Positions 1 through 10,918 of a stretch of DNA of 64,000 nt are shown here, one piece after another. The notes beneath the pieces were generated by a model. That model did not search any database, was not told the origin of the DNA, and saw nothing but the letters and a program-made list of their open reading frames with translations. Made by a program: the position numbers and the translations under genes. The stretch comes from Erythrobacter sanguineus (GTDB lineage Bacteria > Pseudomonadota > Alphaproteobacteria > Sphingomonadales > Sphingomonadaceae), in NCBI GenBank assembly GCA_945878845.1, contig CAMCUB010000008.1, positions 41,908 through 105,907 of the forward strand. The letters are read 5' to 3'. Within the stretch, counting starts at the first letter, position 1. Each line of letters begins with the position of its first letter.

Positions 1-1201
1 GGTCAACATGCTCAACCTCAAGAACCAGACCGAGCAGCGCATTCACCAGCTGCTCAGCGAAAAGTTCCACCTGTTCGACGGTATTTTCGGTGCCAGCGAC
101 GAGGTGCTGGGCACATTGGTCAACGGCTTGGACTTCGAGAAGGAAGTGCTGCGGATCGTCCAAGAGTGCCGCACCGAGGAGCAGGCAGAATTTGAGTTCA
201 ATGTCTTGACCGAGAGCATCAAGGACCGGATTGATGCCGACATGGACGCTGCTCGTACCAAGGTTCTGGGAGAGCTGGACAGTGCCGTGGTTGAGAAGCT
301 GCATCATCGGCAAAGCGCCCTTGCCACAAGCATCCCTGAATTCCGCCAACGATTGCTCATGGTTGCCCATGCGGAGCTAGCTGGCGCAGCCTTTCCAGAA
401 CCGGCGAACGAGCATTTCACCTACAACGGCCAAACCTACACCACTGCATGGCCTGTTGCGGACGAGCAGGACTGGCAATTCTTCCGTGTGTCGGACGGGC
501 TAGGGTTGCAGATTGTCGAGGCTGCAAAGGCGCGGGATCATGCCTCATCGCCCGTGGCCATTCATTTCAAACCCAAGGAATATCCCTACGCCGGTCAGAT
601 GACAGCGGTGAATGCGCTGTCAGGACAGTCAGGCTGGATGCAGGTTGCCAAGGCGACCATGCCGACGCCTGCGGCATTGCGAGAAGAGCTGCTGATCGCC
701 TGCGTGACGGATAGCGGGGAGCAGATTGCCTCTGAAATCGCCGACAAGATGTTCATGGTTCCCGGCGATAGTGGCAACTCAGCCGATGCGATACCGGATG
801 AGTGGCAGTTGAAAGCCATACAGGCAGACCGGTTCGCGTCTTTCTCCGACCGCGTGAAGCGTGAAAATTTCGAATGGATCGAGGCGGAGGAAGAACGGCT
901 GGACCGTTTTGCGGCGGACATTGAGATTGAGCTTGATGCGCAGGTCGATGCGATGGAAGCTGAGATCAAGGAATTGCAACGCCAGAAGCGTTCCGCCGAC
1001 CTTTCGATGGAGCAGAAGATTGAGCTCAGCCGCAAGATCAAAAGGCTGGAAGCCGATGTCGATGACACCAAGCTATCCAAGTTTGAGCGCCGCAAGCAGC
1101 TTCGCAAGGAAGTCAGCGACAAGCTCGACGAATTTGCAGAACAGCTTAATCAAAAGCCTTCCATTGTGCCATTGATGACAGTCAGATGGACTGTCGCCTA
1201 A
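1..1201 (+). CDS. SNF2-family helicase, C-terminal part only (5' end lies outside the window)
   Basis: The reading frame is open from the left edge; the first ATG, at position 8, is internal because the codons before it (V-N) continue the same motif. The segment NLKNQTEQRIHQLLSEKF followed by FGASDEVLG is what I know from the end of the helicase core in RapA-like SNF2 helicases that sit beside Mod/Res genes. The rest is a family-specific tail with a long charged, probably coiled-coil stretch (about residues 285-385 counted from the internal ATG). The walker motifs must lie upstream. Such ATPases would move on or remodel DNA. The stop is 28 bases before the methyltransferase start, so the three genes are likely one operon. 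The role in restriction is inferred from context. Confidence 0.8.
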   Translation, partial: VNMLNLKNQTEQRIHQLLSEKFHLFDGIFGASDEVLGTLVNGLDFEKEVLRIVQECRTEEQAEFEFNVLTESIKDRIDADMDAARTKVLGELDSAVVEKLHHRQSALATSIPEFRQRLLMVAHAELAGAAFPEPANEHFTYNGQTYTTAWPVADEQDWQFFRVSDGLGLQIVEAAKARDHASSPVAIHFKPKEYPYAGQMTAVNALSGQSGWMQVAKATMPTPAALREELLIACVTDSGEQIASEIADKMFMVPGDSGNSADAIPDEWQLKAIQADRFASFSDRVKRENFEWIEAEEERLDRFAADIEIELDAQVDAMEAEIKELQRQKRSADLSMEQKIELSRKIKRLEADVDDTKLSKFERRKQLRKEVSDKLDEFAEQLNQKPSIVPLMTVRWTVA

Positions 1202-1229: not shown

Positions 1230-2885
1230 ATGACTAAGAAAACCAAACTTGAACTGACTTGGCCCGGCAAGGATGAGCGCCCGAAGCTGGAGCCGCGCAT
1301 CCTGATTGAGAACCCTGAGAAGAGCTATCACGCTGCCGCCCGTCGGTCAGATGATGACATCTTCGATAATATGCTCATCAAGGGTGATAACTTGCTCGCG
1401 CTTAAAGCGTTGGAGCAGGATTATGCGGGTAAAATAAAGTGCGTTTTTATCGATCCCCCATATAACACAGGGTCTGCGTTCACCCATTACGATGACGGTC
1501 TTGAGCACTCACTTTGGCTAAGCCTTATACGTGATCGACTGGAATGCATTCATCGGCTGCTGGCTGAAGATGGCTCGCTTTGGGTCACGCTTGATGACAA
1601 CGAGTCGCATTATTTCAAAGTGATGTGCGATGAAGTGTTTGGGCGACGCAATTTTATCGCAAATGTCGTTTGGCAAAACCGCTACTCTCGATCAAACGAT
1701 GCAATAATTTCATTATCGCACAACTCAGTTCTAACATATGCTAAAAGCGCAGAGATCTGGAAAAAAGTCCGTAATCGCCTCACAAGGAATGCTTCTCAAG
1801 ACAAGCAGTATAAGAATCCAGACAACGACCCGCGTGGTCCGTGGCGTGCAATTCCTTGGGATGCCCCTAATATCCGACGCAATCTTGAATATCCGATTGT
1901 GACCCCGACAGGAAAAATAAGGAAGCCGCCAGAGGGACGCTGCTGGTCTCGTACGGAAGACCAATGGCTTGCGCTAGTGGATGCCGGGTTGGCGTATTTT
2001 GGGAAATCTGGTGATGGAGCTCCTTCGTTCAAACAGTTCTTGAGCGAGGCATCAGCAATTGTGCCGAACACGTGGTGGTCACACGAAGAGACTGGCCATA
2101 CGGATGAGGCTAAGAAGGAGATGCATGGGCTATTTGGCAAGGATAATGCCTTTGATACTCCAAAGCCTGAGCGTTTGATGCACCGCATAATAGAGATTGG
2201 TTCTAATCCCGGCGACCTAGTGCTAGACAGCTTCGCCGGTTCCGGCACAACTGGCGCTGTTGCCCACAAAATGGGCCGTCGCTGGATCATGGTAGAAATT
2301 GGGGAACATGCCGACACCCATGTCCTACCCCGCCTTCAAAAAGTCATCGATGGTACGGACCAAGGCGGCATCAGCAAGGCCGTGGATTGGAAAGGCGGCG
2401 GCGGTTTCCGCTACTTTACCCTCGCGCCATCGCTGCTCAGCCAAGACAAGTACGGCAACTGGGTCATCGCCAAGGACTACAATCCGGCGATGCTCGCAGA
2501 AGCCATGTGCAAGCATATGGGCTTCACTTATGCGCCATCGCCCAACCCGCAGGAATATTGGCTGCACGGCTCATCAACCGAAACCGACTTTATCTATGTC
2601 ACAACCCAAAGCCTGACCTACGATGCCTGCGCCAAGATCGCGCATGATGTAGGCCCAAACCGCTCTCTTCTCATTTGCTGTAAAGCCTATGATGACGGCG
2701 CAGATGCCTTCGAGAACCTGACCATGGTGAAAATCCCGACCTCCATTTTGCAAAAGTGCGAATGGGGCCGGGACGACTACTCACTGAACATCCAGAACCT
2801 GCCGATGGCAGAGGATGACGCAGCGGAAGAAGCGCCATCGACCGATGGCTTGCCGCTCTTTGGTGGGGAGAACGGCAATGGTTGA
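1230..2885 (+). CDS. Type III-like site-specific DNA methyltransferase (Mod)
   Basis: 551 residues of the N6-adenine/N4-cytosine methyltransferase family. The catalytic motif DPPYNTG is at residues 75-81 and the AdoMet-binding FAGSGTT at about 335-341, so the order is catalytic motif first, the beta arrangement typical of type III Mod subunits. The region between them (about 170-300) probably carries target recognition, and the roughly 180 residues after the AdoMet motif are an extension of unknown role. It would methylate a specific DNA site to mark self DNA. The stop codon overlaps the Res start (ATGGTTGA), which implies translational coupling. The target site cannot be read from sequence. 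Confidence 0.92.
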   Translation: MTKKTKLELTWPGKDERPKLEPRILIENPEKSYHAAARRSDDDIFDNMLIKGDNLLALKALEQDYAGKIKCVFIDPPYNTGSAFTHYDDGLEHSLWLSLIRDRLECIHRLLAEDGSLWVTLDDNESHYFKVMCDEVFGRRNFIANVVWQNRYSRSNDAIISLSHNSVLTYAKSAEIWKKVRNRLTRNASQDKQYKNPDNDPRGPWRAIPWDAPNIRRNLEYPIVTPTGKIRKPPEGRCWSRTEDQWLALVDAGLAYFGKSGDGAPSFKQFLSEASAIVPNTWWSHEETGHTDEAKKEMHGLFGKDNAFDTPKPERLMHRIIEIGSNPGDLVLDSFAGSGTTGAVAHKMGRRWIMVEIGEHADTHVLPRLQKVIDGTDQGGISKAVDWKGGGGFRYFTLAPSLLSQDKYGNWVIAKDYNPAMLAEAMCKHMGFTYAPSPNPQEYWLHGSSTETDFIYVTTQSLTYDACAKIAHDVGPNRSLLICCKAYDDGADAFENLTMVKIPTSILQKCEWGRDDYSLNIQNLPMAEDDAAEEAPSTDGLPLFGGENGNG

Positions 2886-5571
2886 GCCTGTCAACGAAAC
2901 CCGCATTCGCCGTCAGATTGCACAGCGCCTGAGCCTTCGTGCGCCGCAAGAGAATGCCCTGACCATTTTGGGCGAAGTGCTGGCCGAGATGGATTTCGCT
3001 GAACCCAGCGATTTGGTTGAGCTGCTTAAGAAAATTCAGGTGCAGTACCCTTCAGTCCAGTCGTTCGAACGCGACTTTCCCTCGCTCTGCTTCGCGCTGG
3101 CAACGGGCGTGGGCAAGACCCGGTTGATGGGCGCATTCATCGCCTATCTGTACCTGACAGGGCGCTCCAAAAACTTCTTCGTCCTCGCGCCCAACACCAC
3201 GATCTACAACAAGCTGGTCGAGGATTTCTCCAAGACGACCTCACCCAAATATGTGTTTCGAGGCATCTCGCAGTTTGCCCAGATGGCACCGTTGATCGTG
3301 ACCGGCGACACATGGCAGGAAGGTCGCGGCATCCGTGGCTCCGACCTTTATGGATCGGAAGCCATCATCAACATCTTCAACGTCGATAAGATCAACAGGG
3401 AAACCGGCAAAATCCGCAGTTTCCGTGAAACGCTTGGCGACAGCTATTTCGATTACCTGTCCAAGCTGCCTGACCTTGTGATGCTGATGGATGAGGCGCA
3501 CCGCTACCGGGCCAAGGCTGGCGCGAATGCAATCTTTGAGCTTGATCCAAAGATTGGCTTGGAACTGACAGCAACGCCCAAGACGGTTGGCGCAAGCCCC
3601 AAGGATTTCAAGAACGTCATTTACAGCTACGGTCTTGGCAACGCCATGGCAGACGGCTTCGTGAAAGAGCCAGCCGTAGCAACTCGCGCCGATTTCCGCG
3701 CATCGGACTACGATGCCCAATCGCTTGAGCGGATCATGCTTGAGGACGGCGTGCACTATCATGAGCACGTGAAGAACGAGCTGGAACTCTATTCCCGCGA
3801 AACAGGCCGCAAGCGTGTTCACCCGTTCATGCTCGTCGTGGCGCAGGACACGAAACACGCCAAAGACCTGCGCGATCAGATCGAAAGCGATGACTTCTTT
3901 GCGGGCAACTACAAGGGCCGCGTCATCGAGGTTCACTCGAACCTGAAAGGTGAGGAAAGCGATGAGGCCATGCAGCGCCTCGTGACGCTGGAAACGGCTG
4001 GCGACACGGACATCGTCATCCACGTCAACAAGCTGAAAGAAGGCTGGGACGTTACCAACCTCTATACCATCGTTCCTCTGCGTGCCTCAGCCTCAGACAT
4101 TCTGACTGAGCAGACATTGGGACGCGGTTTGCGTCTGCCCTATGGCGAACGCACTGGAAATGAGGCTGTTGATACCCTCACTGTCATTGCACACGACCGT
4201 TTCGATGAGGTGATCAAGAAGGCACGGGACGCAGACTCCCTCGTGCAGATCAAGGAATACCGGATCGGCAATGGCGGCGACATTTCGACCGAGCCAGAAA
4301 CGATCATCAAGGTTGAGCCAAAGTTCGTATCGGCCCTGACCGGCGCTGGCACCGACACATCGGCTTCATCTGGCACCGAAACGAAGGCTCCGCTCTTCAC
4401 GACGCAGGAAGACCGGCAGGCCGTTGAAACGACCATCGACCTCATCCGCGACAAGTATGAGCGGGAGTTGAAAGGCGGCGTCAGCGATTTGCAAAAGCCT
4501 GAAGTTCAGGAACGCATCGCCAAGGACGTGCAACGGCTAACCCAAGCGCGGCAAGGCACATTGGACGGCATCGTTGCGCCCACCGATTTCGCCAAGGTCG
4601 TCGCCGCAGTGGTGACGAGCATTGCCGAGAACACCATCGAAATCCCCGAAATCGTCATTCTGCCAAGCCGGGAGGTCAACTTCTGGTTCGAAGATTTCGA
4701 CCTGAGTGGCGTCGATGATGTGCGTTTGCAGCCGATTTCAGACAAGCTGCTAATCCGCAATCTGCGCGATCAATCGCAGCGTGAACTCGCGCGGGCGTTG
4801 GAAGGCCCCAAGGAAAGCCAGGTCGAAAACTATCTGGTCAAGCACCTGATGGATTACCCGCAGGTGGACTACGACACCCAAGCTGATCTGCTCTACAAGC
4901 TGGCCGGACAGATGATCGACCACCTCCGCAGCTACCTGCCCAACGAGCAGGATGTTGAGAACGTCGCCCTCGCGCATGGCAAGATGCTGGCACAGCGCAT
5001 CTTCGCCCGAATGAAGCAGCATTACCGCGAGACGCCAGCGGACTATCAGGCCAGCAAAACGCGGTCGTTCCGCACCTTGCAGCCGCAGCACTACAGCTAT
5101 GCCGCTTCCAAGCTTCTGCCCATGACACAGGCAGCAACGCCACTTTCAGCAACACCAAGCTTCGTGTTCCAAGGCGGCGCAAAGTGCCCGTATCAGTTTC
5201 ACAAATTCGACAGCGATCCCGAACGCCGCTTTGCGGTGCTGATCGACAGCGACTTTGAGAAAGACGTGCTGCGCTGGCTCAAGCCCGGCTACAATCAATT
5301 CCGCATCGAGTATCAATCAGGCAAACGCTATGAGCCTGATTTCGTGGTGGAAACGGCATCGGAAAAGCTGATCGTTGAGATCAAGGCCGATAACCAAATG
5401 ACCGACCCGGTTGTGCAGGACAAGGCACGGGCAGCGAAGGAATGGGTCAAACACGCCAGCCGGTTCGCCGCCGAAGGTGATGGCAAGCCGTGGCGCTATG
5501 CCTTGATTTCTGACCAAGCGATCAACGAGAGCGCCACGTTGGCTGGTTTGCTGGCAAGGTTCGCAGATTGA
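2878..5571 (+). CDS. Type III restriction enzyme Res-like helicase-nuclease
   Basis: 897 residues from the ATG at 2878. The frame is open from 2815, but 2878 overlaps the Mod stop and gives the conserved N-terminus. It has a superfamily 2 helicase core: Walker A ATGVGKT at residues 75-81, DEAH at 205-208, LTATP at about 225, and the later helicase motifs near 400-430 (HVNKLKEGWDV, EQTLGRGLRLP). The C-terminus carries a PD-(D/E)XK nuclease signature: P820-D821 and E834-I-K836. The protein is therefore expected to translocate on DNA and cut it when sites are unmethylated. All key residues are present, so the enzyme looks intact. Confidence 0.92.
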   Translation: MVEPVNETRIRRQIAQRLSLRAPQENALTILGEVLAEMDFAEPSDLVELLKKIQVQYPSVQSFERDFPSLCFALATGVGKTRLMGAFIAYLYLTGRSKNFFVLAPNTTIYNKLVEDFSKTTSPKYVFRGISQFAQMAPLIVTGDTWQEGRGIRGSDLYGSEAIINIFNVDKINRETGKIRSFRETLGDSYFDYLSKLPDLVMLMDEAHRYRAKAGANAIFELDPKIGLELTATPKTVGASPKDFKNVIYSYGLGNAMADGFVKEPAVATRADFRASDYDAQSLERIMLEDGVHYHEHVKNELELYSRETGRKRVHPFMLVVAQDTKHAKDLRDQIESDDFFAGNYKGRVIEVHSNLKGEESDEAMQRLVTLETAGDTDIVIHVNKLKEGWDVTNLYTIVPLRASASDILTEQTLGRGLRLPYGERTGNEAVDTLTVIAHDRFDEVIKKARDADSLVQIKEYRIGNGGDISTEPETIIKVEPKFVSALTGAGTDTSASSGTETKAPLFTTQEDRQAVETTIDLIRDKYERELKGGVSDLQKPEVQERIAKDVQRLTQARQGTLDGIVAPTDFAKVVAAVVTSIAENTIEIPEIVILPSREVNFWFEDFDLSGVDDVRLQPISDKLLIRNLRDQSQRELARALEGPKESQVENYLVKHLMDYPQVDYDTQADLLYKLAGQMIDHLRSYLPNEQDVENVALAHGKMLAQRIFARMKQHYRETPADYQASKTRSFRTLQPQHYSYAASKLLPMTQAATPLSATPSFVFQGGAKCPYQFHKFDSDPERRFAVLIDSDFEKDVLRWLKPGYNQFRIEYQSGKRYEPDFVVETASEKLIVEIKADNQMTDPVVQDKARAAKEWVKHASRFAAEGDGKPWRYALISDQAINESATLAGLLARFAD

Positions 5572-5737: not shown

Positions 5738-7078
5738 TTAGCGAAGACCTGAGAGATCACGGTCTTCGTCACCGGTATCGAGGGCCAACGGGTGCGTATC
5801 CTTGTCGATCTTCGGCCCTGTCATCAGGTGCGTCCGGTATTGCTTGAGCACCTTAAGATCGCGGGCCGCGATGACCTTGTGAATGGCATCGACGGCAGAC
5901 TTCACCTTGCTGTGAACCACGTCAGCCGGGTTCGCCATTTCCACCTCGAACACATGGTGAGCGAGTGCGACGGCGTCGCAGAGCACCGTGAGATTGTGGT
6001 GGGCATGGTAACGGTCACTCTGCGCATCGTGGTAGCGCCCGTTGGTCGGCGGGCACGGTACACACATGTCACCCAGAGTGAGATGCCGGCCAAGGACGCT
6101 GGGCCACGGCCACTGCGCCTTCGAACCAAAGAACACAGGGTCAGCAGGTGCGACGAGCTGGGCCAACTTCATCTCATTACCATCAATCTGGGGCAGCGTG
6201 AAAATCTTGTTGCTGCGCAGCATGATGAAGGGAGATGCCGTATCGTAGGAGATACGCAGGTGCGGGTTGATGTGCTTGTTGATCGCCTGCTGTAGTGCAG
6301 TCAGCATCACGGCCATGTCCAAGGTCGAAGTGCCAAGAACATGGATCCAGTTCTTAGTCTGCAACAGCCCATCGTTGGCCATGGTGATCACACGGCGGCA
6401 AATCTCATACATATTGCGACGCATGACGCCTGCGATGGCCCAGCCTTCGAAGGGATAATGCTTGACGGCTTCATACCAGCGATCAGCTTGGTGCGGATTG
6501 TTGCCCTGAATTACGTTCAACCAGCGCACCTTCCCGAGAGTGCGATTAGCAGCAAAGTAGTCGAGATGATCAAGCGTGGCGTCGAGGCAAGCATCGAAAT
6601 CCTTGTAGCGATAGGGATGGTTCTCGAACCGGGTTGGCCCGGTCGGCACGTCTAGCGTCATTGCCAGATCGCAGTGAGTTTCCAGCCAGTTCAGGATGCG
6701 CGGACGGTCACGGACCGGGTCAAGCGTCTTGCTGTTATTCGCAATCTGATACCCACCGCTATCTCCGATGACGCGGGCAAATTTGCGATCACGCTCGGTG
6801 ATGATGCAGCCGTTGTTTTGCTTCAGCGCCTGCCCCGCAGAATAGAGCACATGGCTCCAGCGGAACAGCGGGTTGGCGGGGGCGATGAAATCAAAGTCGC
6901 CGGGGTTGATGCCCTGCGGCAACGGACGCTGCCAGTTCTTGGCATAGGCATCGATTGCGTAGCTCGGGCTGACAGACGGCGTATAGATCGCCCAGTCACG
7001 TGGGATAGGGTCATTCTGCAAGTTGGGAAGGAAGCTGAAAGAAGGCACAGCGGTATCGTCAGGGCGCGAAGCGTCCAT
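5738..7078 (-). CDS. DpdA-like tRNA-guanine transglycosylase-fold protein (probable DNA base-exchange enzyme)
   Basis: 446 residues from the ATG at 7078, which follows an AGGAG Shine-Dalgarno; the frame continues upstream but only into the intergenic hairpin and the neighbouring gene. Motifs line up with bacterial Tgt: GDSGGYQ (106-112, the base-binding DSGG), LDVP with D143 at the position of the Tgt catalytic/binding Asp 156, VIQG (189-192), AIAG (214-217), and YDTASP with D279 at the position of the Tgt nucleophile Asp 280. C339-x2-C342 plus a later HHNL resemble a partial zinc site. Tgt swaps guanine for a 7-deazaguanine in tRNA; the DpdA branch does so in DNA. The housekeeping tgt context is absent and the gene sits beside restriction genes, so the DNA role is favoured, but by inference. 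It is the second gene of an operon with the 619-residue protein. Confidence 0.72.
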   Translation of the reverse strand: MDASRPDDTAVPSFSFLPNLQNDPIPRDWAIYTPSVSPSYAIDAYAKNWQRPLPQGINPGDFDFIAPANPLFRWSHVLYSAGQALKQNNGCIITERDRKFARVIGDSGGYQIANNSKTLDPVRDRPRILNWLETHCDLAMTLDVPTGPTRFENHPYRYKDFDACLDATLDHLDYFAANRTLGKVRWLNVIQGNNPHQADRWYEAVKHYPFEGWAIAGVMRRNMYEICRRVITMANDGLLQTKNWIHVLGTSTLDMAVMLTALQQAINKHINPHLRISYDTASPFIMLRSNKIFTLPQIDGNEMKLAQLVAPADPVFFGSKAQWPWPSVLGRHLTLGDMCVPCPPTNGRYHDAQSDRYHAHHNLTVLCDAVALAHHVFEVEMANPADVVHSKVKSAVDAIHKVIAARDLKVLKQYRTHLMTGPKIDKDTHPLALDTGDEDRDLSGLR

Positions 7079-7108
7079 GGTAATTCTCCTAGATTTTGTG
7101 GGGTTGTC

Positions 7109-7132
7109 GGGAGGGACACCGAGGCCCCTCCC
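7109..7132. promoter_or_regulatory. Perfect hairpin between the two genes of the transglycosylase-like operon
   Basis: A 7-bp perfect stem, GGGAGGG and CCCTCCC, with a 10-nt loop lies in the 70-nt gap between the 619-residue gene and the DpdA-like gene. There is no T-run after it on either strand, so it is more likely an RNA processing, stability or attenuation element than a full terminator. It could set different amounts of the two proteins. Confidence 0.5.
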
Positions 7133-7148
7133 AGTCGGTGAAGTGTGG

Positions 7149-9008
7149 TTAGGCGGGCACTGCTTCCGCATCGACTTCAGCGATTTCGACATGGATCGGC
7201 GCAGATGCGATGTCTGCCGCAGTGGCATTCGACGGCACGGGTGCGTTGACCTTTGCGAAGTACTTGGGCGAGAGCACCAGATCGTTGTCGCAGGTCGGGA
7301 CGTAGACATCGTACTCGCCGGTTTCGTCAGCGAACGAAGCCTTCAGCACACCTGCGATGTTTCCCGACAGCGTGACATCGCAGACATCGAACTTGTGGAG
7401 CTTGGCGAAAAGACCATACACATCCTTGGGCCGCAGCGTGAGTTCGAACGCCTTGTCCAGTGCTGCTGTGATGGTCAGCTTGCCATCGGTCTGCCCCTTG
7501 AAGATCACCGTCAGCTTGTCCGCTTCGAACTTGATCTTCATCGGCTGCGCCCCCTTCTTAGTTGGCGACACGGACTTGAACTTCTTAAGGTGCTCAACGA
7601 ACAGCTTGCTGAGTTCGGCCTTGGTCAGCGTGACAGAAAACTGCTCTTCGTAAGCCTCGACGTTGACCGGCTGATAGCGGCCCTTGGTCATGTAGTTCCA
7701 GAACAGGTGGCGCTTGGCAGTTTTGCGTCCGGCCTTAGCCAAGGCGGTGTTGTTCAGGCACCAGCTGATTGCGCTTCCCGAAGCCTTACCATCATTGAGC
7801 ACGGGCACAGGGTCGCGCGACAGCGTGTAGAGTGAACGCATAGTGCGGTCGTGAAGCTTGTCGGCCACAATCTTGCGAGACGACTTGAGCATGTACAGGT
7901 AATCCTGCGTCTGCACGATGTTCGAGGCAATTCCCGGCCCGGGCTTGGCGTGAACGACAACGGATGTCGGAGCCATACACGCCGAAACCATCAGCTTCGC
8001 GCCCGCAGCATCCGGCACCATCGAGAACAAGCTGTATTCCTCGATTTCCAGCGCACCGGCGATGTTGTCCACACGGAGCTTGGTCTTCTTGCCGGTATCG
8101 ACCAGTTCACCGAGGCTGAGCGTCCGCGAAACAAACTCTGCCGCTTTATCAACCGGCAGCATAACCTTGTCGTTCAGCTTGCGCAGCATGCCATCGATTT
8201 CGCTGTTTTCCAGCGGCACCTCGCCGATGATAGAGACCGTGCCATTATCGTGCCGTCCGTACATCACCACCACATTGTCACCAGTCGCATAGCTTGGGTC
8301 CATGGCGAAGCTGGCCTTGACGTTGGCAGTCGCAATGGCAGCCTTGATGTTGTCCTTCAGGGCAGTTTCAATGATCGAACGATCATCAGCAGTTTCGCCG
8401 TCTGCCTGGGGTTCGCCGTGACGCTGCATGAACAGCACCTTTTCGAAGCCGCCAGCATCTTTGATCGCATCAACCAGAGGCACAACATTGGTCACAAGCT
8501 GATTGCGAAACTTAGCATCGAGCCATTCCAGCACAGCGCAATAGCGCGACGTGTTTGAGGCGTGGTATTCGTAGTCGAACTCCAACACGAGGCGACAAAT
8601 GGTGGTGAAACGCGAGGCACCTTGGCGCGGCGTGTCGATCTTGATGCGCTTTTCTGCCTCCCATTCCTTCTCGGTCTTTTTGAGGTCATTTGTAACCTGC
8701 TCGTCAGCCACCGCCTTGGGATTGGTAGTCAGCTCTGCCTTGTGAGCAGCGACATTGTCCTTGCGCTGCGGGATTTCCTTGTTGTGTTCGGCGATCTTGC
8801 CGTTGCGAGCCTTGATCTGCTGCGTCAGCCAGCCCGCCCCGCCATTGGGAGCAAGCGTGTTGAGATACACGAGATAAACATGCGCGACTGCCTCCATTGC
8901 GGAGGCCTTCGAAGCGATATAGGCCTTGCGTGCAGCTGTTGTGTGCTTTTCCGCAGCCACAGAGGGCGACAGAGTGATGGTGTTTTCGGTTTCGGTGTGG
9001 TCAGTCAT
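7149..9008 (-). CDS. Hypothetical protein, first gene of the transglycosylase-like operon
   Basis: 619 residues, not recognised as a known family. The N-terminal third is helical and charged, with a likely coiled coil at about residues 60-125. The middle has mixed alpha/beta segments. About residues 465-590 show regular short beta strands, including FELTLRPKDVYGLF and a strand ending in YDVYVPT, whose layout reminds me of a sliding-clamp domain; this is only a visual resemblance. There is no signal peptide, membrane segment, nucleotide-binding loop or obvious catalytic motif. The gene is followed after 70 bases by the DpdA-like gene, so the two products probably work together. Composition is lower in GC than the backbone. 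Confidence 0.75.
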   Translation of the reverse strand: MTDHTETENTITLSPSVAAEKHTTAARKAYIASKASAMEAVAHVYLVYLNTLAPNGGAGWLTQQIKARNGKIAEHNKEIPQRKDNVAAHKAELTTNPKAVADEQVTNDLKKTEKEWEAEKRIKIDTPRQGASRFTTICRLVLEFDYEYHASNTSRYCAVLEWLDAKFRNQLVTNVVPLVDAIKDAGGFEKVLFMQRHGEPQADGETADDRSIIETALKDNIKAAIATANVKASFAMDPSYATGDNVVVMYGRHDNGTVSIIGEVPLENSEIDGMLRKLNDKVMLPVDKAAEFVSRTLSLGELVDTGKKTKLRVDNIAGALEIEEYSLFSMVPDAAGAKLMVSACMAPTSVVVHAKPGPGIASNIVQTQDYLYMLKSSRKIVADKLHDRTMRSLYTLSRDPVPVLNDGKASGSAISWCLNNTALAKAGRKTAKRHLFWNYMTKGRYQPVNVEAYEEQFSVTLTKAELSKLFVEHLKKFKSVSPTKKGAQPMKIKFEADKLTVIFKGQTDGKLTITAALDKAFELTLRPKDVYGLFAKLHKFDVCDVTLSGNIAGVLKASFADETGEYDVYVPTCDNDLVLSPKYFAKVNAPVPSNATAADIASAPIHVEIAEVDAEAVPA

Positions 9009-9187: not shown

Positions 9188-10075
9188 ATGACCGATTACG
9201 GTGAAGTGAGGTTTTACTTTCAATACGCCAATCCGGTTGAGACCGAAGACGAACTCGCCGGGCAAAAGCGACCGACCATGCGCGGCACCAAACATCCATG
9301 GGAAAACAGCCCGTACTTCTGGTGGTGGCTGTTTCTGAGAGAGAACGCAGCCTACACGCAGACCTGTAATGGCAACGGTGGTGAGCCTTGCAGCGCCCTC
9401 TATGCCGATTTTGGCGATGTTCGGCCGGACAACTTCATGGCTTGGTGGTTGAACCGTGGGCGTCAGCTATTCTGCGAACCACATGGAGCAGCCAGTCGTA
9501 TTGTACCGCCCGACGAGCGCAGCTACGGCGACCAGACATTCCGGATTGTGGTTGAATTAGAGAGGTTCGGCGATACGGATCGCGCGATTGCGGAAGTTCG
9601 CAGTTTCCTCCAGCAGCAGCAGCCCGAGGGTGATTATGGACGAGGCGGACGCAACATCAGCCGCGCACTCTATCAGCTGTTCACCAAGCCCAATCTGCAT
9701 TCTCTCCGCCAGCACTATCAAGCTCACCAGCTGATTAAGGCTGACCCGAACATAGTCGATGCAAAATTTGTTGAGCAAGCGGGTATCAAGCTGGGCAGCT
9801 CCAGCGTAGCAACCGCAGCCAAGTCCTATCGGGAAAGCATCGCAAGGATGGTCGAATACGCTGGCAAAGGCGTATTCCCAATCATGACGAAAGCGCAAGC
9901 CAATCGGGTTCCGGCCTACCTCGAAAGCCGGAAGCTAGCTGGCCAAGAGCGCCGTCGGGAAATCGCAGCAGGCTTGCACTGTGCACCTTTTGGACCGCTT
10001 GAAGAGCCTGAGCCAGCCCTGACACATTCCACAACCAATCAGGGATTTCGGAACTTTGTTCAACGAACCAGCTGA
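9188..10075 (+). CDS. Hypothetical protein of the accessory island
   Basis: 295 residues; the start follows a purine-rich site (AAAAGGGGGGCAGG). I do not recognise the family. The first 100 residues are rich in aromatic residues (for example SPYFWWWLFLREN and FMAWWLNRGRQLF) and contain three cysteines in C-x8-C and a later C-x-P-H, which could form a metal site. The rest is predicted helical, with a basic segment RKLAGQERRREIAAG near residue 250. There is no signal peptide or membrane segment. It is transcribed away from the DpdA-like operon, from a shared control region with palindromes, so it may belong to the same system. Confidence 0.7.
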   Translation: MTDYGEVRFYFQYANPVETEDELAGQKRPTMRGTKHPWENSPYFWWWLFLRENAAYTQTCNGNGGEPCSALYADFGDVRPDNFMAWWLNRGRQLFCEPHGAASRIVPPDERSYGDQTFRIVVELERFGDTDRAIAEVRSFLQQQQPEGDYGRGGRNISRALYQLFTKPNLHSLRQHYQAHQLIKADPNIVDAKFVEQAGIKLGSSSVATAAKSYRESIARMVEYAGKGVFPIMTKAQANRVPAYLESRKLAGQERRREIAAGLHCAPFGPLEEPEPALTHSTTNQGFRNFVQRTS

Positions 10076-10558: not shown

Positions 10559-10918
10559 TCAGGCTGTCAGTAGCTGAGCCGCGTAGATGTCGGGCTTGAA
10601 GCCAACGATGCGACGTCCTCCTAGATCGAGCACGGGCCGTTTGATCATCGAGGGGTTGGCCAACATCAGCGCAACAGCCTTGTCTGCATCGATGTTCTGC
10701 TTGTCTTCATCCGGCAAGGCGCGAAAGGTCGTCCCAGCTCGGTTCAGCAGAACTTCCCATCCAAGCTCCGCAACCCAATCTTGCAGCATCGTCTGGGCCA
10801 CGCCTGACTTTTTGTAGTCATGGAAGACGAAAGCTATTCCCTGTGAATTCAGCCAATCCTTGGCCTTCTTAATCGTGTCGCAATTCGGAATTCCGAACAT
10901 CGTCAATGTCATAGCCAC
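10559..10918 (-). CDS. ArsC/Spx/MgsR-family protein (YffB-like)
   Basis: 119 residues with the arsenate-reductase-like thioredoxin fold. FGIPNCDTIKKA near the N-terminus gives the single reactive cysteine, followed by F-HDY-KSG and LLNRAGTTFRALP, the pattern of the YffB/Spx branch. In that branch arsenate reduction is unproven; members act in thiol redox chemistry or bind RNA polymerase. A second start, two codons in (10912), is possible. The gene stands alone and may belong to the backbone rather than the island. Confidence 0.85.
   Translation of the reverse strand: MAMTLTMFGIPNCDTIKKAKDWLNSQGIAFVFHDYKKSGVAQTMLQDWVAELGWEVLLNRAGTTFRALPDEDKQNIDADKAVALMLANPSMIKRPVLDLGGRRIVGFKPDIYAAQLLTA

Follow-up and report, generated by a model that had tools for sequence, protein, structure and literature searches.

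Near the start of a 64,000-nucleotide stretch of the Erythrobacter sanguineus genome (assembly GCA_945878845.1, contig CAMCUB010000008.1, positions 41,908 to 105,907; the whole stretch is called the window here), two neighbouring genes encode what we interpret as a compact DNA-modification module. One encodes a 446-residue protein of the tRNA-guanine transglycosylase (Tgt) superfamily (5738..7078, minus strand, in an open reading frame (ORF) of 5738-7309), the other a 619-residue partner (7149..9008, minus strand). We favour the reading, at a probability of about 0.62, that the first protein is a DpdA2-like DNA-guanine transglycosylase and that the second is a PCNA-type clamp which tethers it. 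Because the genes share a strand and lie 70 nucleotides apart (7079..7148, minus strand), we infer that they form one operon; AGGAG stands just upstream of the enzyme start at 7078.

A preliminary description of this DNA had recognised the 446-residue protein as a Tgt-superfamily member with DSGGYQ from residue 106, D143 and D279, and its genes, coordinates and residues proved correct. Searching with the enzyme returned 683 protein homologues at E ≤ 1e-3, of which the best 120 were used. A family alignment comprised 34 members from bacteria and viral contigs, including the window protein, to which the others are 20-50% identical. Invariant in all 34 are D106, S107, G109, Q111, D143, W201, G212, A214, H246, D279 and H361, and the aspartates of the DSGG, D and (F/Y)D motifs of the superfamily occur in that order. 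The codon of D106 (6761..6763, minus strand) aligns with the Asp of the Tgt DSGG motif, that of D143 (6650..6652, minus strand) with the Tgt base-recognition Asp and that of D279, within YDTASP (6242..6244, minus strand), with the nucleophile Asp of Tgt FDCVLPTR; we take their respective roles in catalysis, base recognition and nucleophilic attack from Tgt biochemistry. Comparison of profile hidden Markov models with hhalign placed the family closer to phage DpdA2 (nt-1 and 10 relatives; probability 97.6, E 3.5e-12, 314 columns) than to 31 bacterial Tgt proteins (probability 95.4, E 1.8e-8, 318 columns), in keeping with the preliminary description, which had called the enzyme DpdA-like; this is a preference and not proof, since the E values come from single profile pairs of unequal depth. 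The Tgt profile alignment pairs the DSGG, recognition and nucleophile aspartates, and 9g-type DpdA gave no signal (probability 3.2). As the profile relationship is remote, we describe the enzymes as a sister family of DpdA2, not as members of it. PF01702 scored the window protein at E 0.12 (11.8 bits, against a cut-off of 26.3), Pfam, NCBIfam, PHROGs and PADLOC scans of the enzyme, its partner and a neighbouring 295-residue protein gave nothing above cut-off, and NCBIfam NF041059, the DpdA of dpd clusters, had no match in the whole genome or in the enzyme scan.

We consider it quite improbable that the enzyme is instead a further Tgt with tRNA, or some other RNA, as its substrate. Bacterial tRNA Tgt carries a CxCxxC...H zinc site; in our family H361 is invariant and C339 occurs in 20 of 34 members, and the Cys triad of Tgt aligns with a Cys-free stretch. 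Together with the greater proximity to DpdA2, this argues against an RNA substrate. In addition, a canonical Tgt is already encoded elsewhere in the genome (E 8e-154), and a clamp partner would make little sense for tRNA. The kept superfamily residues would suit such a substrate, and the fold alone does not decide between RNA and DNA, since DNA, too, can be labelled with a bacterial Tgt (PMC10103133). For the DNA-directed enzyme that we prefer, the incoming base would be host preQ0 (or preQ1), both of which should be available as the genome encodes QueC (E 2e-69) and QueF (E 1.4e-29).

The 619-residue partner, unrecognised in the preliminary description, turned out to be a predicted sliding-clamp protein. 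Its AlphaFold2 model, computed from a 36-sequence alignment and replacing a 12-sequence model with a mean predicted local distance difference test score (pLDDT) of 54.8, reached a pLDDT of 83.4 and a predicted template modelling score of 0.64. Foldseek returned 368 matches to this model at E ≤ 1e-3, and the 50 matches listed were all PCNA. The clamp-like part comprises residues 284-576 (7281..8159, minus strand), whose predicted fold has the repeated domains of a clamp, two by secondary structure, and resembles PCNA and the beta clamp; residues 15-227 (8328..8966, minus strand) form a helical N-terminal part in the secondary structure of the model. The partner is thus predicted to fold like a PCNA-type sliding clamp. 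A protein search with the partner alignment found just 16 proteins, all known before, and sequence searches of the PDB with single sequences and with profiles of the partner, of a phage family described below (c1) and of the third gene yielded nothing credible.

The association of the two genes is one argument that the clamp serves the enzyme. A partner-family protein adjoins the enzyme in 27 of 29 bacterial loci, which bears out the co-occurrence raised in the preliminary description, with the qualification that this count uses profiles built partly from those very neighbours (the c15, c99 and c49 partner types); with a profile of only the window partner and its close homologues, 14/29 reach E ≤ 1e-5 and a fifteenth scores 6e-4. 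Neither outcome that the description had named as refuting it, a best match to tRNA Tgt with a tRNA substrate or genes that do not co-occur, came about. In every type but c49 the partner gene precedes that of the enzyme on the same strand; c49 partners are encoded on the other strand. By hhalign, type c9 is linked to c15, c49 and c99 with probabilities of 99.3, 88.1 and 83.0, and the remaining comparisons are weaker (c15-c49 54.8, c15-c99 8.7, c99-c49 0.1). Of the two unpaired loci (L numbers denote loci), L016 begins at the very edge of its contig, and the 8.6-kb contig of L019 contains no partner; L002 and L011 have a partial partner only. The enzyme family occurs in 9/396 genomes of the order to which the window belongs, this genome included, and is therefore rare and scattered. 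In the order-wide search the partner accompanied 10/13 matches (own locus counted; two were weak, at 6e-9 and 9e-6), the three misses being fragments; some loci seem to come from the same genomes, so the 27/29 and 10/13 counts are not independent. Mapped onto an enzyme tree, partner type required 6 changes against a minimum of 5, and 0/200 shuffles were as low; the tree is a quick one that joins two long viral branches, and close copies by themselves cause labels to group. This tree was built without L001, L016, ORFs shorter than 350 residues and duplicates; its viral rows were labelled as paired with c1, except L046, L069 and L070, and the label was also given to L053, whose contig starts at the enzyme gene so that c1 is not seen. 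By this computation, enzyme and partner share inheritance.

Since a clamp-like gene adjoins the enzyme gene in nearly all bacterial relatives found, we consider it likely that the clamp tethers the enzyme. The fold could also have a different function, for instance in regulation or as a scaffold, with no tethering of the enzyme to DNA. Fold similarity by itself demonstrates no function, tethering does not account for the large helical N-terminal part, and the scan of island proteins recognised no clamp loader, all of which would suit a partner of that kind. We judge it improbable in view of the strict pairing and shared inheritance, and also because known or likely clamp genes adjoin DpdA genes of two lineages without a match to each other.

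In 36/40 viral loci the enzyme gene has upstream of it, on the same strand and within 2.5 kb, a member of c1, a family of 245-residue proteins; in 32 of these the distance is at most 100 bp. This family corresponds to PHROG 12062, to which PHROGs assigns no function (two members tested), and the evidence, though suggestive only, makes it a likely clamp: the partner profile aligns over the whole of c1, and its sole match across six phage records was the C terminus of a c1 protein. PF09116 (gp45) was found in one of eight phage records searched, that of nt-1, and hence neither shows nor excludes c1 as a clamp. A family-B DNA polymerase cluster is present in 28/40 viral loci, and FolE- or QueE-type clusters in 22/40 (flanks of at most 8 kb; each type named from one member). 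In phage 9g, whose DpdA represents the second lineage, polymerase, replicative clamp and dpdA stand side by side, and a homologue of the 9g clamp lies beside dpdA in 6/7 viral loci with 9g-type DpdA, four of them near-identical. Cultured Pseudomonas phages, among them Paride and PA5oct, have family members annotated as hypothetical proteins. According to a survey from 2021 (PMC7824862), PA5oct possesses a system for deazaguanine synthesis/incorporation, and that survey may already name the PA5oct member gene.

Gene order in these phages resembles that of the bacterial pair, so that the pair might be a fragment of a phage replication or modification cluster left in the chromosome with no present role, as the rarity of the family noted above would also allow. 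We regard this as very improbable: the catalytic residues are invariant, both reading frames are intact, and the bacterial partners have an extra N-terminal part that c1 (~245 residues) lacks. Moreover, four phage polymerases used as tblastn queries, the polymerase families searched there, had no match in the 29 bacterial loci, so that in the bacterial islands clamp-like protein and enzyme stand together apart from them.

Several observations weigh against a functional enzyme-clamp module. The A4 profile matches Tgt in the PDB only at E 0.044, and the scan of island proteins recognised no gene for preQ0 synthesis. The clamp identity of the partner rests on its predicted fold: hhalign found no detectable similarity between the partner and 30 DnaN proteins (probability 1.0), and no Pfam clamp family scored above cut-off in it. 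The link to the phage proteins is weak, with a probability of 56.5 (E 1.1e-4) for the partner profile against full-length c1 and of 43.4 and 9.7 for subsets of the partners. Run over six phage records, the partner profile gave one match (1/6), to the c1 C terminus in one record (E 0.004). Likewise, c1 scored 0.3 against DnaN and 0.3 against the 9g clamp and had no PDB match, and the partner scored 0.2 against the 9g clamp. Finally, clamp adjacency in phages may merely reflect the clustering of replication genes.

On balance we retain the clamp-tethered transglycosylase, which would work as follows. The enzyme would replace DNA guanines with a 7-deazaguanine made from preQ0, and the clamp partner, presumably riding on newly replicated DNA, would hold it there. 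Contact might be made through the conserved acidic C-terminal tail of the enzyme, a loose pattern for which fits 106/120 sequences longer than 400 residues, the window protein included; we suggest this tail, speculatively, as a candidate docking peptide for the clamp. As the island proteins scanned included no recognisable loader, the clamp may bind DNA without one, as the herpesvirus UL44 clamp does, or use the host loader. To our knowledge, it has not been settled how a transglycosylase seeking guanines genome-wide is brought to DNA, and a dedicated clamp partner, apart from a phage polymerase gene, would answer that question. At a little under even odds, we further suggest that this is the first bacterial DNA base-modification system with a dedicated clamp, acting on replicating DNA, and that it either derives from jumbo phages or is common to them and bacteria; with clamp genes beside two unmatched DpdA lineages, clamp coupling could then be a general principle of DNA transglycosylation. 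The enzyme-clamp pair would also give bacterial defence islands a compact DNA-modification module without a name in the PADLOC models used, and jumbo-phage proteins now called hypothetical would gain a suggested function.

As to its role, we consider it most likely that the module marks resident DNA and thereby exempts it from restriction. Modification of invading DNA as a defence comes a close second: the same enzyme and clamp would modify replicating foreign DNA, blocking it or flagging it for an island nuclease. The pair sits in islands with varied defence genes, and GrwAB provides modification-dependent restriction of 7-deazaguanine phages (PMC12137116), which would fit such a role. We nevertheless hold it to be possible rather than probable, because the neighbourhoods showed no nuclease gene that recurs throughout, and marking foreign DNA would also shield it from restriction.

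The neighbourhood of the pair changes from locus to locus. In the window, a type III Mod gene (1230..2885, plus strand; PADLOC MTase_III, E 8.1e-210) and a type III Res gene (2815..5571, plus strand; PADLOC REase_III, E 1.8e-238) adjoin it, so the adjacency described earlier is real and PADLOC assigns its type. The functional link to restriction drawn from that position was not supported: homologues of the window Mod or Res occur in one of 29 other loci (L010), and we rejected the Mod/Res association as a defining feature, treating both genes as neighbours and not as a conserved part. That locus, from N. arvoryzae, has Res, Mod and an ArsC-family gene 92%, 75% and 80% identical to those of the window, whereas its enzyme is ~44% identical; with a near-identical Res beside a divergent enzyme, the pair and the restriction-modification genes change independently. 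The ArsC-family sites (window 10559-10918, L010:6331-6702) hold related islands in two genomes, and the site is likely an integration hotspot.

Besides the type III system and a dCTPase-type deaminase in the window island, the defence neighbours include a type IIG system at L021, a type I restriction-modification system at L015 and an SspH-like protein at L011. At L009:12541-21273, homologues of HmaA, HmaB and HmaC adjoin the pair. The neighbours outside the window island come from a scan of 10 chosen from five loci, 7/10 of which matched. With so wide a range of defence systems nearby, the pair is a component of defence islands and not of one restriction system. In three of nine c15-type loci (L025:13010-13939, L027 and L030) an EndoIII/OGG-like DNA glycosylase gene lies near the pair; that of L025, which alone was tested, matched PADLOC OGG at E 1.7e-5 and has a weak iron-sulfur motif. 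Such a glycosylase could act as a base-specific restriction partner. A Vut_1/YhhQ-type gene neighbours three related bacterial loci, L017-L019 (Pfam E 1.6e-6, from L018 only), in a search that excluded L164 and L165, whose partner type is that of L017 and L018; we count this gene, like the viral FolE- or QueE-type clusters and the PA5oct system, in favour of a deazaguanine modification. Near the enzyme gene in L017-L019 and in 18 viral loci lies a glycosyltransferase-like gene of cluster c5, below the Pfam cut-off, which might add a sugar to the modified base.

A 22-kb island on contig C8 (~30.2-52.5 kb), whose final portion is the first 10 kb of the window, has a G+C content near 0.54, against ~0.66 outside. 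On the left it contains genes for a serine and a tyrosine recombinase and for a 532-residue deaminase (L172:16573-18171; PADLOC dCTPase, 1.1e-156). A 947-residue SNF2/DrmD-like helicase crosses the window edge: its start precedes the window, its C-terminal part occupies 8..1201 (plus strand), and PADLOC DpdE models match it only below DrmD models. Divergent from the pair is the third gene, encoding 295 residues (9188..10075, plus strand), followed by the ArsC-family gene (10559-10918) and then by high-G+C sequence. Likely relatives of the third gene occupy the same position in 10/15 loci with the window's partner type (window included), at only 16-29% identity to the window copy. Their alignment (A7) has invariant F, WW, F and GxFP, and the third gene gave no Pfam match above cut-off and no credible PDB match with single sequence or profile. 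We rejected an intergenic hairpin as a defining part, since in the window its z score (-0.55) is within chance. In six of ten loci (the window and nine others), a hairpin of differing sequence 3' of the partner gene has z < -2 and possibly sets the ratio of the two proteins.

Among the papers listed by full-text literature searches, judged from titles and the starts of abstracts and with most subscription papers outside their scope, none describes a deazaguanine transglycosylase paired with a clamp. Compared with the PCNA, 9-1-1 and DnaN clamps, the partner shares the predicted fold of residues 284-576 and differs in having no sequence match to them, an extra helical N-terminal part and no polymerase recognised alongside among the window-island proteins scanned. 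The DpdA2 of phage nt-1 is the nearest profile to the enzyme family and has the same motif order (DSGG, D..P, HxLG, SYD(S/T)); like it, many phage members of the family sit with FolE or QueE genes. Identity to the enzyme family is, however, ~14% in the profile alignment, the nt-1 clamp is not adjacent (gp45 near 211.6 kb, DpdA2 at 237.9 kb), and the window island has no recognised preQ0 gene among the proteins scanned. The DNA of nt-1, the source of this DpdA2, contains mainly dPreQ0, and also dG+ and dADG (PMC6884629). In phage 9g, too, dpdA adjoins a clamp gene, but neither its DpdA nor its clamp can be aligned with the enzyme family or the partner (probabilities 3.2 and 0.2), and its clamp adjoins a phage polymerase gene.

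A precedent for a clamp-bound base-modifying enzyme is the alpha-glucosyltransferase of T4, which binds the gp45 clamp, a replication clamp and not a dedicated one, and the dominance of alpha-glucosylation in T4 is attributed mainly to expression and not to the gp45 interaction (PMC13216743). The bacterial dpd cluster (dpdA-K) likewise combines a DpdA-type enzyme with a partner in a genomic island, and reliance on preQ0 would be common to both. PADLOC detected no Dpd protein among 12 island ORFs, a scan that excluded small ORFs and in which the presence of a DpdB model was not checked. A two-gene form, which the preliminary description held to be new, is not new in itself, since phages with dpdA alone are known (PMC6884629) and a genome-mining preprint (PMC11888242) requires dpdAB as the core of a bacterial dpd island. 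In that cluster the partner is DpdB, with its DndB domain (PMC11888242), whereas here it is clamp-like; what would be new is this clamp partner in place of DpdB within DpdA-type DNA modification.

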